DNA from: Dehalobacter sp. DCA
GTDB taxonomy: Bacteria > Bacillota > Desulfitobacteriia > Desulfitobacteriales > Syntrophobotulaceae
Assembly (NCBI RefSeq): GCF_000305775.1
Contig: NC_018866.1
Coordinates: 2,809,001-2,873,000, forward strand
Length of the DNA stretch: 64,000 nucleotides
Direction: 5' to 3'
In this document: in pieces, positions 2,463 to 33,130 of the stretch
How the letters are laid out: the number at the start of each line of letters is the position of its first letter
How positions within the stretch are numbered: the stretch's first letter is position 1
Made by a program: the position numbers and the translations under genes
The notes under the pieces: generated by a model
Database searches by the model: none
Seen by the model: the letters and a program-made list of their open reading frames with translations, nothing else
Told to the model about the DNA's origin: nothing

Positions 2463-2539
2463 TAGCGTCTCTCCTGATCCGTACAGAAAAATATCCTAGT
2501 TACTGTAACTCTATCAAGCCAAAATATGAAATACATGAC

Positions 2540-2597
2540 AGCAGATTTTAAGCAATACTGCGTTAACATACCGCTCCTTTACTGCTAAAAATCTGCT
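2540..2597 (-). other. Long imperfect hairpin in the modA-modB intergenic region
   Basis: Two 18-base arms (2540-2557 and 2580-2597) pair with one mismatch and one G-U pair around a 22-nt loop. There is no T run after either arm, so it is not a normal terminator. The position between modA and modBC suggests an RNA stabiliser or processing site setting the ratio of binding protein to membrane subunits, but this is inference. The rest of the 2463-2733 gap is AT-rich and holds a direct repeat of AACTAAATAT near 2669-2692. Confidence 0.5.
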
Positions 2598-2733
2598 CGC
2601 CATAATTTGATAATTTGACATATTTATTTCGGGCAAGTATTATCATATCTATTATTTAGATATAAAACAACTAAATATCAACAACTAAATATTTATCATG
2701 CTATCAAATTCCATTGAATGTTGATGATTCTTC

Positions 2734-3540
2734 TTATTTGATTATTTTGAAACCGTATTTCACAAAAATTTGTTGAGCATTGTCACCGCTTAAGTAACTT
2801 AAAAAATCCTTCGCTTCAGTCAGATTTTTGGTATTGGCAATTACAGATGCAGGATAAACAATGGTACTATGGCTGTCAGTCGGTGCAATTGCAATGACTT
2901 TTACTTTATCAGATCCCTGAGCATCAGATTGATAGACGATACCAGCATCAACGTTCCCGCTTTCTACGTATGTCAGTACTTGTGTGACATCTTTGGCCAA
3001 AACCAATTTGGCTTGCAGCGTGCCCCATAATTTCATACTGGTTAAAGCTTCCTGGGCATATTTCCCTGCCGGCACACTGTCGGGAGTACCAATACTGATT
3101 TTACCTGCCTTGGCAAGATCCTGAAAACTGGTAAAACCTTTATTATCTTTCCCTGCAATCAGCACAAGATCGTTCCCAAGCAGGTCAATCCGGGTCCCTT
3201 CCGCTAAAAAATTCCCTTTTTCTAATGCATCCATTTGTTTTTTTCCTGCTGAAATAAATAAATCGGTCGGCGCGCCTTGCTCAATCTGCTGCTGCAAAGA
3301 ACCAGATGAACCATAGTTAATCGTCAGATTAATCCCTGCGTTTTTCGCTTCGTACTGTGTTTCTATTTCCGTCATGGCATCTTTTAAACTGGCCGCTACT
3401 GATACAAGAATCTCTTTTTTCTCGACCGGAACCGTTTCTTTTTGTTCAGTACGATTTGTTGAACTACCCGAACTGCTGCAGCCAACAAGTACCAAACATG
3501 CAACCAAAACCATAATCAGAATTCCACCAAACTTTTTCAT
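2734..3540 (-). CDS. modA: Molybdate-binding lipoprotein ModA
   Basis: Extracellular substrate-binding protein of the molybdate/tungstate importer, anchored to the membrane by lipid. The N-terminus is a lipoprotein signal with lipobox LVGC near residue 21, followed by a Ser/Thr/Lys-rich linker. The mature part opens with VSVAASLKDAM, a ModA hallmark whose serine binds the oxyanion, and has NYGSSGSLQQQIEQGAPTDL, the second ligand-binding segment. The 268-residue length is normal. AGGAG lies upstream of the ATG. It is first of the mod genes on this strand and is transcribed away from the divergent HTH/PBP-domain regulator at 3902, its probable controller. Confidence 0.93.
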   Translation of the reverse strand: MKKFGGILIMVLVACLVLVGCSSSGSSTNRTEQKETVPVEKKEILVSVAASLKDAMTEIETQYEAKNAGINLTINYGSSGSLQQQIEQGAPTDLFISAGKKQMDALEKGNFLAEGTRIDLLGNDLVLIAGKDNKGFTSFQDLAKAGKISIGTPDSVPAGKYAQEALTSMKLWGTLQAKLVLAKDVTQVLTYVESGNVDAGIVYQSDAQGSDKVKVIAIAPTDSHSTIVYPASVIANTKNLTEAKDFLSYLSGDNAQQIFVKYGFKIIK

Positions 3541-3901: not shown

Positions 3902-4855
3902 TTGCTCGAAAGCACTTCCTATACTCCTGAAGAAGTAGCCCAGAAACTTAAAATATCCAAGTATACCGTCTATGAATTGATCAAACGCGGGGATCTTGCT
4001 GCATACCGGGTTGGACGTAAGGTAAGAGTAGAGGACAAAGATATCGAAGCCTATATTCAGAAAAGCAAAGGTGCCTCAATGACGACCGACGTTTTTACTT
4101 ATCCAGTCTTAGAGCGCTCTTCAGAACCCGGCCGCTCTCCGGATGTCTCTATATCGGATACGGTCGTTATTTGTGGCCAGGATATCATACTGGATATTCT
4201 AACCCGTCATCTTCTGAAACAATATCCGAATATCAAATTCTTAAGAAGCTATATCGGCAGCATTGATGGTCTGCTGGCACTCTACAGAGGTGAAGCTAAC
4301 ATTGTTACTGTCCATCTCTGGGACAGTGATGCCGATGATTATAATCTTCCTTATATCCGAAGACTTATGCCCGGACACCAAACAATCGTGATTAATCTGG
4401 TCTATCGCCAGGAAGGCTTTTATATTTCCCGCGGCAATCCTAAAGATATTACATCCTGGAAAGACCTGACCAGACCGGACGTCCGGTTTATTAACCGCGA
4501 ACGCGGGTCGGGAGCCCGAGTCTTGCTTGATGAAAAATTGCGCATTGAGAGTATCCCACATCACTTGATCAATGGCTACTACGATGAAGAAATGAGCCAT
4601 ATGGCCGTGGCCAGCAACGTTGCGCGGGGAGAAGCCGATGTAGGGCTGGGCATTGAAAAAGCAGCTATGCAGGTGTCAGGTCTTGACTTTATTCCACTGA
4701 AAACGGAAAGATATGACCTCGTGATGCGCCAGGAAGACCTGAATAAACCGCATTTCCAGGCCCTGCTGGCTATTATCCGTTCTGAAGCCTACCGTAAGGA
4801 AGTCAAGGGATTAGGCGGCTATGATGTCTCGCGGATGGGCGAAATGATGGAGTAG
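3902..4855 (+). CDS. HTH regulator with periplasmic-binding-protein-like ligand domain (molybdate-type)
   Basis: One-component cytoplasmic DNA-binding regulator. Residues 5-52 form an excisionase/MerR-like helix-turn-helix (TPEEVAQKLKISKYTVYELI, then RVGRKVRV). Residues about 85-310 resemble the PBP-like domain found in molybdate/tungstate-responsive regulators, with ERGSGARVLLDEKL as the ligand-binding segment and GEADVGLGIEKAA near the C-terminus. The start is TTG at 3902, fixed by GAGGTG seven bases upstream. It is divergent from modA, so it probably senses molybdate or tungstate and controls the mod genes. This is inferred from domain order and location. A strong terminator follows directly. 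Confidence 0.82.
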   Translation: MLESTSYTPEEVAQKLKISKYTVYELIKRGDLAAYRVGRKVRVEDKDIEAYIQKSKGASMTTDVFTYPVLERSSEPGRSPDVSISDTVVICGQDIILDILTRHLLKQYPNIKFLRSYIGSIDGLLALYRGEANIVTVHLWDSDADDYNLPYIRRLMPGHQTIVINLVYRQEGFYISRGNPKDITSWKDLTRPDVRFINRERGSGARVLLDEKLRIESIPHHLINGYYDEEMSHMAVASNVARGEADVGLGIEKAAMQVSGLDFIPLKTERYDLVMRQEDLNKPHFQALLAIIRSEAYRKEVKGLGGYDVSRMGEMME

Positions 4856-4874
4856 TCAAAACATATAAACAAAG

Positions 4875-4922
4875 AAAAAAGACTTCCTGCTGCCTTTCGA
4901 AAGGCAGCAGGAAGTCTTTTTT
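4875..4922. terminator. Strong symmetric terminator
   Basis: A perfect 24-bp palindrome centred at 4898/4899 with six A's at one end and six T's at the other, 20 bp after the regulator stop. It can work in both directions. Confidence 0.85.
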
Positions 4923-4936
4923 CTTCAAAATTTACT

Positions 4937-5097
4937 AGTACCTTGTAACCCCTAAAATTGTAATATAATGGTGAGCAGATTTCTTTTAAGACAAGGCGGA
5001 GGATTGAGCCATACCGAGTGTATGGCGATTGACGACAACGCAGTATGAAAAGAAATCCGCCGCCAGGATATATAAGATTTAGGGGTCACATGGTACT
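4937..5097. repeat. 161-bp nested palindromic element (MITE- or REP-like)
   Basis: Outer arms of about 21 bases (from AGTACC at 4937 to GGTACT at 5097) pair imperfectly. Inside them a perfect 10-bp pair GATTTCTTTT (4978-4987) / AAAAGAAATC (5048-5057) encloses a hairpin GCCATAC / GTATGGC (5008-5014 and 5020-5026), itself flanked by direct copies of GATTGA. There is no good ORF and no clear target duplication. It sits between a terminator and the 3' end of the degV gene. I see no second copy in this window. A non-autonomous mobile element or a structured RNA are both possible. Confidence 0.55.
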
Positions 5098-5122
5098 TGA
5101 CAGATGTCGTATTGTCACCCGG

Positions 5123-5965
5123 TTACTCCAGCTGGATAGCTGCTCCAACTGTTCCCGGTCCTGTATGGGCACCTATTACGGCTCCAACCTGCGCAAACAT
5201 CTCTGCCGGTTTTTGAAAAGCATTCTCCAGTTCTTCTTTCAAATATAGTCCTGCCTGGGGAGCCGCTCCATGCGCAACGGCAAATTTAATATTTGTCCTT
5301 TTCCCAGCAAAGTCCTGAAATGCCTTGACAATGCTTTTTAAAGCTTTCTCCTGACTCCGGACTTTGCCAAAATTCTGGTAAACTCCGTCATCACCTACCC
5401 GGATTACCGGTTTGATATTCAGCAGTGTCCCCATAAACCCTGATACTCTGCCGATTCTTCCGCCTTTTTGGAGGTATTCCAGCGTATTTAAGGTAAAAAG
5501 CGTTTCAATGCTATTTCTGGCCTGTTGAAGCTTATCCAAAACTTGAACTGATTCCAAACCCTCTTTGATAGCTTTGGATGCCTCCATTACCATCAAGCCC
5601 AGACCGAGGCTTATGGTCTTAGAATCCACTAGATGAATGGCACCTTTTATTTTCTCTTTGGCCAGATGGGCCGCGTTCAACGTACCGCTTAAGCCGGAAG
5701 AAATATGAATGGAAATAACCTCCTGATATTCTTCAAGAAGCATCGAGTATAACGAAACAAACTGTTCCGGGGAAGGCTGAGAGGTTTTCGGAAGCTCTTC
5801 TTCCTGTTCTAGACACCGATAAAATTCTTTGGGGCTAATTTCTCCATCCACAAAACTTTTTTCCCCAAATAGAATTTTAAGAGGAATAACATGGGCCAGA
5901 CATTTTTTCGATAGTTCGTCCGGCAAATCCGCAGTGCTGTCAGTGACCAAAGCAATTTTTTTCAT
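5123..5965 (-). CDS. DegV family fatty-acid-binding protein
   Basis: Cytoplasmic lipid-binding protein of the DegV/FakB type, which holds a fatty acid for phosphorylation by a FakA-type kinase. It begins KKIALVTDSTADLP (family N-terminal motif) and carries ISSGLSGTLNAA with the fatty-acid head-group-binding serine region, LDTKTISLG-like text (VDSKTISLGLGLMV) and a C-terminal IGAHTGPGTVG. An upstream in-frame ATG at 6055 exists, but the GGAG-preceded ATG at 5965 gives the normal 280 residues and a canonical start. No fakA-like kinase is adjacent. Confidence 0.9.
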   Translation of the reverse strand: MKKIALVTDSTADLPDELSKKCLAHVIPLKILFGEKSFVDGEISPKEFYRCLEQEEELPKTSQPSPEQFVSLYSMLLEEYQEVISIHISSGLSGTLNAAHLAKEKIKGAIHLVDSKTISLGLGLMVMEASKAIKEGLESVQVLDKLQQARNSIETLFTLNTLEYLQKGGRIGRVSGFMGTLLNIKPVIRVGDDGVYQNFGKVRSQEKALKSIVKAFQDFAGKRTNIKFAVAHGAAPQAGLYLKEELENAFQKPAEMFAQVGAVIGAHTGPGTVGAAIQLE

Positions 5966-6215
5966 ACTTCTCCTACTTTCTCTCTTGAAATATAATCTGT
6001 TCCATCTCTTTATATGTCTCTTCTTATATCTCTCCATATCATCCCAATATATCAATCACGGAAGATTCACTGCCGCAACATTAGATTCCCCGACCCGGGC
6101 ACCTCTGACAATGATAAACTTAAGCTCATACGTTTGTCCGTTTGTATTATTCTCTGTATTCCGCCATTATCCCTTTAAAATCGAGCAATCCGTTTGGAAT
6201 AAATCGGTGTCAAAA

Positions 6216-6842: not shown

Positions 6843-8321
6843 TTATTCCGCTAGATCTACTTCAAACCAAAACTCGACGCCATTTTCCACGTTTTGAACC
6901 CCATATGCATTGCCATGCTGTTCCTGAGTGGCCCGGACGATCGACAAGCCAAGGCCTGTGCCGCCATAAGAGCGGGTTCTTGCTTTGTCTACCTTATAAA
7001 AGCTGGTCCAAATCTTATCCAGAGCTTCTTCAGGAATGGGAGTGCCGGAGTTGAAAACACTTACTCTGGCTTTTTGTCCTGTTTTTTCGAGCTTGACTTT
7101 AATTTCTTTGCGCTGGTCTGCATGATTGATCGCATTGACCAGATAGTTCACGATGATCTGTTCAATCCTGTCGATATCGGCATTAACCGTAAATTTATCC
7201 TGAATTTCCTGGGTCAGCTGAATATTTTTCTCTTTGATCAGCAGTATATTCTTTCTGAGGACAAATTCAACCAGTTCGTTTAAGTCAAAATCTGTTTTTT
7301 CCAGTCGGGTGTAGCCCGCATCGATCTGCGATAACTCCAGAAGTTGTTTGACAAGCTTATTCATCTTGGCGCTTTCATCAATGATCACATTACAATAGAA
7401 GTCTTTATCCTCTTCACTTTCATTGACATTGACCTTGAGCCCCTCGGCATAACCCCGGATCAGTGCAATCGGCGTCTTTAGCTCATGTGAAACATTGGAA
7501 ATAAATTCTTTTCTCATGTCGTCTATTTTTCTTTCTCTTTCGATATCCTCCATGAGCTTTTCATTGGCCTGCCGGAGTTCATTGATCGATTTCTCCAATT
7601 GGGTGGAAAGCGAGTTAATGCTTGACCCAAGTTCGCCAATTTCGTCGTAGGTCCGCACTGGGTATTTTTTGCCAAAATCCAGTTTGACCATGGCCTGGGC
7701 GATCTCATTCAGACGAAGAATGGGTTTGGTAAATCTATCTGTAAAGAAAAATACGATCAGCACCCCGATAACCATAATAAACAAACCCGTAATAAGAGAA
7801 AACTTATTGGCAATTGCCGCACTTTCCTCGATTGCGACCACCGGAGTGTTTAGGTACAGATAATCTCCGTTATTTAACTGTCCAACCAGATTAATAAAAT
7901 CGGAATTCAGTCTGCGGTCAGTGGATTTAACAATCACGGGCTGCGTGGAATTCTGGGCATCTTTAAGGATCGAAATATCAGGAATAAACGAATAATCCGA
8001 GCCTCCGGGCTTTTTTAGCGGCTCATGAAAAAATCCTTCTTCTTTTAATGAAGAAATATATTTGATATACATGGATGAATCAAGAATCGTAATGTTCAGA
8101 CCCTCGGTCCTCTCAATTTTCTCCAGATTGAGTAAAATATCGAATGGCTCGCCATCGTAGTTTTCATTGATCTCATGGTAGTACTCCTTCAAGGTGCTTT
8201 CCTTGTTCAAGTAGTAATACTTCGCAAGAAACTGGTCGTTTAAAAACCACGAAAGCAAAACATACAATACAGTCAGGCAGCTTATGGCAGTGAATAATTT
8301 TAGTTTGATTGATGATTTCAT
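6843..8321 (-). CDS. Membrane sensor histidine kinase (OmpR-pair type)
   Basis: 492 residues. TM1 near 9-28, an extracellular sensor region to about 165, TM2 about 172-194, HAMP about 195-248, then the dimerisation/phosphoacceptor helix with ISNVSHELKTPIALIRGY (phosphorylated His) and an ATPase domain with NYLVNAINHAD (N box) and GGTGLGLSIV (G2 box). It autophosphorylates and passes phosphate to the regulator encoded 16 bp upstream (8338-9012). The regulator's promoter shares a phased operator with htrA and a glycosyltransferase gene, so an envelope or secretion stress sensor (CssS-like role) is plausible, though the sensor region itself gives no ligand clue. Confidence 0.92.
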   Translation of the reverse strand: MKSSIKLKLFTAISCLTVLYVLLSWFLNDQFLAKYYYLNKESTLKEYYHEINENYDGEPFDILLNLEKIERTEGLNITILDSSMYIKYISSLKEEGFFHEPLKKPGGSDYSFIPDISILKDAQNSTQPVIVKSTDRRLNSDFINLVGQLNNGDYLYLNTPVVAIEESAAIANKFSLITGLFIMVIGVLIVFFFTDRFTKPILRLNEIAQAMVKLDFGKKYPVRTYDEIGELGSSINSLSTQLEKSINELRQANEKLMEDIERERKIDDMRKEFISNVSHELKTPIALIRGYAEGLKVNVNESEEDKDFYCNVIIDESAKMNKLVKQLLELSQIDAGYTRLEKTDFDLNELVEFVLRKNILLIKEKNIQLTQEIQDKFTVNADIDRIEQIIVNYLVNAINHADQRKEIKVKLEKTGQKARVSVFNSGTPIPEEALDKIWTSFYKVDKARTRSYGGTGLGLSIVRATQEQHGNAYGVQNVENGVEFWFEVDLAE

Positions 8322-32924: not shown

Positions 32925-33130
32925 TTTCATCTCCATTTCTAAACTATAGCTCTATTGTAATAACGTCAGATGAGACTACGCTTAATTCAGGATTAAAACT
33001 TGATTAGAATTTTGCATACACAGTATTATGGTTATGGTATAAACAAGGCACTTCGCTCATGAATGATCTTCGTTCGGCATTAGTCCAACCATGGACGTCA
33101 AAATAAGACAAAATAGTCTTCGAAATATAG

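Follow-up and report, generated by a model that had tools for sequence, protein, structure and literature searches.

The window (the whole 64,000-nucleotide stretch of Dehalobacter sp. DCA DNA that was analyzed) carries a palindromic element of 161 bp between two convergent genes, one on the plus strand (3902–4855, with HTH and PBP-like domains) and one on the minus strand (5123–6055, DegV). A separate inverted repeat, perfect over 27 bp and terminator-like in appearance (4872–4925), ends 11 bp before the element. The preliminary description of this DNA had proposed three nested levels of symmetry (outer arms, a 10-bp middle pair and a 7-bp inner hairpin), with direct GATTGA copies flanking the hairpin and no gene inside; all three levels and both direct copies are present, and the one ORF that overlaps the element (67 aa, 5045–5248, across its end) is purely mechanical. 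The layout of the element, together with a second family copy in the window, is as follows.

4937–5097, plus strand: whole non-autonomous element, 161 bp, AG...CT, inserted at CT/AG
4935–4936: left target half, CT
5098–5099: right target half, TG in the window copy (AG in 21 of 40 copies)
4937–4956, plus strand: left tip, inverted repeat AGTACCTTGTAACCCCTAAA, pairing with 5078–5097 through covarying pairs
5078–5097, minus strand: right tip AGTACCATGTGACCCCTAAA, inverted repeat, covarying pairs
4937–4971 and 5063–5097: outer arms, 35 nt each, 74% complementary
4975–4992, plus strand: middle stem, 5' arm, 18 nt, 83% complementary to the 3' arm
5043–5060, plus strand: middle stem, 3' arm, 18 nt
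4994–5008, plus strand: conserved core, 5' loop strand AGGCGGAGGATTGAG, from the core covariance model
5027–5040, plus strand: conserved core, 3' loop strand GATTGACGACAACG, in which 5029 covaries with 5005
5002–5007 and 5027–5032: direct GATTGA copies
5008–5026, plus strand: inner hairpin GCCATAC/GTATGGC, 7 bp (5008–5014/5020–5026)
about 2516–2616, minus strand: second, decayed family copy (blastn pieces 2516–2616)

The perfect 10-bp pair (4978–4987/5048–5057) sits within the middle arms. Under RNA energy rules the plus strand of the element folds at -64.8 kcal/mol (z -8.65) and the minus strand at -63.0 kcal/mol (z -9.07), values that were equaled by 0 of 200 shuffles in either case. Across the window, 1277 tiles of 161 nt taken at a step of 50 nt average -33.7, and a single one of them (4801–4961) folds as low as the element; that tile owes its low energy to the adjoining 27-bp repeat and not to the element.

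The preliminary description had called for a search for further copies, and the element proved to be repetitive. A 231-base query returned 27 matched pieces in the window's own genome (G000, one contig of 3,069,953 bases), which by count represent 19 places, the window's included; the remaining pieces are second pieces, reversed arms and the neighboring repeat. The two best other copies in this genome are 98% identical along the entire element, and matches occur in 11 of 41 genomes (own included), among them all five searched genomes of the genus. Neither the phages nor the plasmids searched hold a match to the window element at E 1e-5, nor do the plasmids hold one to the tip consensus at E 1, and the core pattern described below was not found in viral contigs.

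Copies come in several sizes: about 161 bp, shorter decayed forms, and forms of 212–264 bp, which are enlarged by one or two inverted inserts of a repeat about 48 bp long. This repeat also occurs alone and within another palindromic repeat, and the long forms are therefore nested insertions and no parent of the family. The decayed copy in the window, which sits between minus-strand genes (1770–2462 and 2734–3540) and is matched by the covariance model at 2538–2602 (22 bits, E 0.0027), carries an apparent remnant of the nested 48-bp module, and a 27-bp fragment at 33075–33101 of the window is 93% identical to the module nested in longer copies elsewhere. The same two-hairpin module is found in another palindromic repeat of G000 (AGTCTGYGGGCCACAG..., near 1430–1610 of L136, L138 and L140); with nested copies counted, 24 matches to the module fall in G000 and 37 in G003, yet a Y1 transposase was not found in G000. 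L006 and L058 are the same chromosomal locus in two genomes, and the element there contains a different nested module in each (inserted on the left in one genome and on the right in the second), which gives the impression of modules swapped in place.

The nested hairpin is kept by compensatory change, the second point on which the preliminary description had sought evidence. In a set of 22 of the 25 complete copies, drawn from three genera (L051, L057 and L067 excluded), 17 of 48 pairs are altered on both sides, and the covariation score reaches 0.222, against 0.087 for shuffled alignments (0 of 500) and at most 0.059 for slid structures. Although 92.4% of the cells pair in this set, the structure was written from the same sequences and the figure leans toward it (one proposed pair never forms), making the double changes the stronger point. 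The letters of the middle stem vary among genera while its pairing stays, and in the inner hairpin three of eight pairs are altered on both sides in relatives.

The ends of the element were set by 40 complete copies (eight loci, comprising seven orthologues and one odd row, having been dropped first) and by orthologous empty sites in G001, G002 and G004. The terminal inverted repeats are precise, with AG at the inner end in 39 and CT in 38 of the 40 copies, and the consensus reads AGTRCC...GGYACT around a length of about 161 bp. Strong flank preference is confined to the four bases CT/AG (C in 34 and T in 31 copies on the left, A in 33 and G in 27 on the right), and 26 copies have TA on both sides. 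When the joined flanks of ten loci were compared with sister genomes, seven loci (L004, L005, L006, L007, L009, L011 and L020) were empty in at least one of them, and L002, L012 and L021 remained undecided. For L004, L006, L011 and L020, one or more of the genomes show the empty site as CTAG. The window's own locus (L009) is among the empty ones, reading CTAG in G002 and G004, where the DNA farther upstream differs, and CTAA in G001; at L007 the empty site reads CCGG, and at L005 CTAG is present with the flank shifted. The check for empty sites that the preliminary description had called for thus came out positive, and the element inserted at CTAG after related species had split.

CTAG is palindromic, and duplications of 0, 2 (TA) or 4 bp therefore look alike at such sites; imperfect flanks, in which the inner AG/CT is retained and the outer bases have changed, speak against a 4-bp duplication. 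Duplication is readable in other sub-families: a TNA duplication fits six of six copies readable at both ends among the seven of the G022 sub-family (six of which are nearly identical) and four of five copies in G064. Short, dispersed in many copies, bounded by inverted repeats, lacking a transposase gene and matched by empty sites, the element has several of the properties by which MITEs are defined.

A search for longer elements bounded by AGTACC tips found none in G000 or G003. Judged by eye, the 71 tip matches in G000 (up to three mismatches) and the exact tip 12-mers (47 in G000 and 66 in G003) form inverted pairs 0.6–6 kb apart only as outer ends of neighboring small copies; a partner that had been lost would leave the same picture. 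The pairs of this kind lie at 383766/387158 in G000 and at 1187392/1191198 and 2641780/2645125 in G003, and six of the ORFs between them, scanned with Pfam, belong to metabolic families in five cases and to no family in one. Five single-tip regions of G000 (L142–L146) showed by eye no recognizable transposase ORF. Half elements in L008 and L015 were considered as the start of a gene-carrying version and rejected (four ORFs scanned, no transposase, one without a family), and the inverted tips around host genes at L319 and L401 are separate small copies. A longer element with the G022 tips was not found in G022, nor was an IS5_3 transposase in G000. As candidate partners, the IS110 loci (compared only with the repeats themselves), the Y1 loci and the IS1182 loci do not fit; AGTRCC.TGT tips are absent alongside the Y1 and IS1182 loci, bar one stray match in L127. 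The L127 locus of G003 (877–1971) holds a Y1-transposase ORF of 279 aa, with inverted tips AGGCTTTTGTC/GACAAAAGCCT and ACGT on both sides.

The family extends further through its center. Arms that are dissimilar in sequence, but again self-complementary, surround one short shared core, AGGCGGAGGANNGAG-hairpin-GAYTGACGACAACG: matches restricted to the middle part in G007, G016, G020, G031 and G032 are elements of the same size with unrelated self-complementary arms, and the core is seen in 24 of 25 such loci (L197 is without it). Across 28 of 35 extracted cores, representing several tip types, the covariation score is 0.386 against 0.145 shuffled (0 of 500). The core covariance model matches the window at 4969–5063 with 98 bits, the window copy being among the sequences from which it was built. 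At E 0.001 the model has hits in 24 of the 82 genomes searched from the class, some of them, mostly in genus g12, weak (30–37 bits). More distant sub-families measure 158–161 bp, with one exception of 173, and some related elements (L401, the g12 and G022 families) have a changed core, so that the shared core is not indispensable everywhere. At L401 (about 6051–6215 and 7576–7740) superfamily arms surround another hairpin that replaces the core.

A pattern scan of the genome collection returned at least 120 stretches with the core. By their titles, the 120 listed matches comprise 49 from Actinobacteria (Streptomyces, Actinacidiphila, Nocardioides, Propionibacteriaceae and others) and 71 of Firmicutes type, a count that includes one titled only Bacterium D16-51 and two that look like G007 assembly records; Lachnospiraceae are the largest group among the latter. 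Ends were measurable for 83 elements among the matches listed and not for 38 (AG...CT ends only, with duplicates and contig edges dropped); the 83 have a median length of 162 bp (range 130–220), and 42 of them show TA on both sides (29 the full CTAG), 13 fit TNA and 28 fit neither. In 104 elements among the matches listed, the fold z has a median of -10.9 and lies below -4 in 93, and their outer arms retain 0.14–0.20 bits per position in an ungapped alignment. Repeats of about 160 bp lie mostly outside annotated features in the plasmid records listed; 15 of the 83 elements overlap an ORF of at least 150 aa, in part probably a spurious one in GC-rich DNA.

Within the internal loop of the core, one position per strand covaries. 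Across 115 distinct cores among the matches listed, the two positions are G and C in 62, T and T in 46 and some other combination in seven (Fisher p 2e-29, a statistic that ignores kinship); the window copy has T·T at 5029/5005, where G–C is found elsewhere. By phylum, the G–C and T·T states account for 26 and 8 of 36 actinobacterial cores and for 29 and 21 of 54 other cores. The scan pattern fixes most loop letters, so that conservation there is partly by construction; at the covarying pair, the first position was left free and the second was restricted to C or T. In our own reading, drawn and not computed, the loop could be two tandem G·A pairs around two variable pairs. The switch between G–C and U·U across the loop suggests that the core is read in a folded state.

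Actinobacterial relatives provide a link to insertion sequences. The tip AGACCGACCGGCAATTGG marks one Streptomyces sub-family (L305, L341, L358 and L396, all four of which fit a TNA duplication, with near forms at L323 and L346) and recurs as the left tip of an IS on plasmid NZ_CP109482.1 of Streptomyces sp. NBC_01450 that belongs to the IS5 family, whose right tip agrees with AGACCGACCGGCAATTGG at 17 of 18 positions and which has TAA on both sides; a second IS with tips of the AGACCGACCGGCAATTGG kind lies at L428. The tip AGGGCCTGTCGTTTGGATCA of another sub-family agrees at 16 of 20 positions with AGGCAGTTTCGTTTGGATCA of an IS5-family IS in S. tendae (L433), again set in CTAG, and further ISs of the AGGCAGTTTCGTTTGGATCA kind lie at L432 and L435. 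The four transposases that were scored all match NF033580 (IS5 family). Either tip kind is seen at seven of 11 IS loci (L404, L428, L429, L431, L432, L433 and L435, with L429 and L431 imperfect) and neither, by script, at four (L406, L430, L434 and L436), of which L406 bears decayed tips of the second (AGGGCCTGTCGTTTGGATCA/AGGCAGTTTCGTTTGGATCA) kind; L403 and L405 carry the second kind, with no annotated transposase found nearby. At the level of sequence comparison, the tips and target preference of these relatives agree with those of IS5-family ISs of the same genus, the match between ISs and miniature copies with the same tips being established within one genus. For the AGTACC tips of the window copy no IS match was found, and we do not class that copy as an IS5 MITE.

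Comparison of these two tip groups (six Streptomyces copies of the first against three copies from Actinacidiphila and one from Streptomyces of the second, 24 pairs) shows the outer 26 bases per side to be 48–67% identical and the interior 71–89%, whereas within one tip group the tips can be identical with an interior of only 83% identity. Tips diverge and the interior is kept between groups, and recombination therefore seems to have put ends and interior into new combinations in these actinobacterial relatives; the folded core looks to be shared and the ends exchangeable.

We interpret the window element as a MITE-like, non-autonomous element that was probably moved in trans by a DDE transposase of the IS5 superfamily, with the folded core possibly aiding. 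For the window's lineage and tip type we infer that such an enzyme would cut at AG...CT and paste the element into CTAG; the autonomous partner in this lineage may have been lost, have diverged or have gone unrecognized. On the simplest view, some step would involve recognition of the element in folded, single-stranded form, either by a host factor or by one associated with the transposase. With more reserve than for the transposase step, we propose that the folded core serves as a single-stranded signal, in DNA or RNA, which may make the element a good substrate for whatever transposase the tips engage, or protect the element with it; the core might then be kept when tips change because its signal would serve any tip-matched transposase. 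A broader version, which we offer tentatively and hold to be somewhat less likely than not, is that a portable folded core, selected for its single-strand structure, has repeatedly been re-equipped with IS5-type ends in Firmicutes and Actinobacteria, making it a generalist parasite of transposases and not the relic of one.

The core could instead be a functional small RNA or regulatory RNA motif for which mobility is just the means of spread. Such a role would account for the G–C/T·T covariation across the loop, for the strong folds of the 104 elements and for the presence of the core in two phyla. Against it, the orientation of the elements to their neighbors is unbiased in the 82 of 83 with a gene (here, a mechanical ORF) on both sides, at 22 (+,+), 26 (-,-), 18 (-,+) and 16 (+,-), which speaks against a cis-acting RNA of flanking genes, and no Rfam family falls on the element in the window stretch (E up to 1), nor does one at 15 loci from relatives; we consider this role unlikely. 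The preliminary description had suggested a MITE-like element or a structured RNA: copies, empty sites and covariation bear out the former, and the unbiased orientation counts against the latter in its cis-acting form.

The AGTACC tips might also belong to an IS630/Tc1-type MITE that duplicates TA inside CTAG. IS630 targets CTAG, and the copies with TA on both sides (26 of 40, and 42 of 83 among the wider relatives) are as this would predict; similar CTAG-type tips in Streptomyces, however, belong to IS5-family ISs, and we give an IS630/Tc1 origin little credence. A Y1/HUH transposase could instead act on the element in folded, single-stranded form, by REP/RAYT or IS200/IS605 logic. This would explain the hairpin, which is conserved in both loop and stem, and the lack of a clear duplication at CTAG, and Y1 genes of RAYT-like length are present in G003. 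PF01797 (Y1) is, however, unmatched in G000, G002, G004 and G007, all of which hold the element, TNA duplications occur in other sub-families and the Streptomyces tips are of IS5 kind, so that mobilization by Y1/HUH appears decidedly improbable. A chance palindrome, for which small size alone could be argued and to which the preliminary description would have reduced a single copy with no covariation, is ruled out for practical purposes by the many copies, fold z, empty sites and compensatory changes.

Some MITEs belong to IS5-family insertion sequences, the IS5 and IS630 families have target habits, and the usual view of MITEs is that they are remnants left by deletion, their fate tied to a single insertion sequence. 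The MITE-like element favored here resembles IS5 MITEs in being small and gene-free and, in Streptomyces, in having tips and a target preference that agree with a resident IS5-family element. It differs in that its interior is no remnant of one IS, a similar interior being found with other tips and targets in two phyla, and in that a partner was found for one Streptomyces tip group, a similar one for another and none for the window copy. The bcr1 repeat of the Bacillus cereus group is likewise a palindromic mobile repeat of similar size and conserved structure; the likeness is drawn from its description, and no Bacillus appears among the 120 listed titles. TIMEs, the Tn3-derived inverted-repeat miniature elements, are non-autonomous, moved in trans and form mosaic derivatives, with 38-bp Tn3 ends and 5- or 6-bp duplications; they are alike in non-autonomy, trans mobility and mosaic nature, and a shared folded core is unmentioned for them in the abstract (PMC4133298). 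REP/RAYT systems are also palindromic and dispersed, with hypothesized trans mobilization by a transposase, but measure 20–40 bp with GTAG/CGTC tags (PMC3733652), and G000 has no PF01797 match.

Literature searches, covering mainly papers outside subscription, returned nothing relevant for the core and tip letters and, by topic, no paper about such a family by title or abstract. The kind of element is thus known, as a MITE, and what looks new is the combination of a conserved folded core with different, partly IS-like ends. Here, the interior persists when the ends change, in two phyla and with covariation inside the loop. If our reading is correct, a small nucleic-acid fold would be a selected, transferable transposon part, and one could ask directly how the fold benefits a transposase or a host factor; a class of repeats of about 160 bp in Clostridia and Streptomyces would also be explained.

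Two further loci combine IS5-type elements with other DNA. On a Kitasatospora papulosa plasmid (L406, 3503–5040), an SMI1/KNR4-family gene and a broken gene for an IS5 transposase lie between decayed tips of IS5 type. In G001 (L420, 1094–2297), an IS5-like element with ends GGAAACACTGATTAA and CTAG, its tips unlike those of the window family, occupies the CTAG that borders an old window-family copy; the same old copy is free of it in G000 (compare L112), as if old copies act as landing sites.
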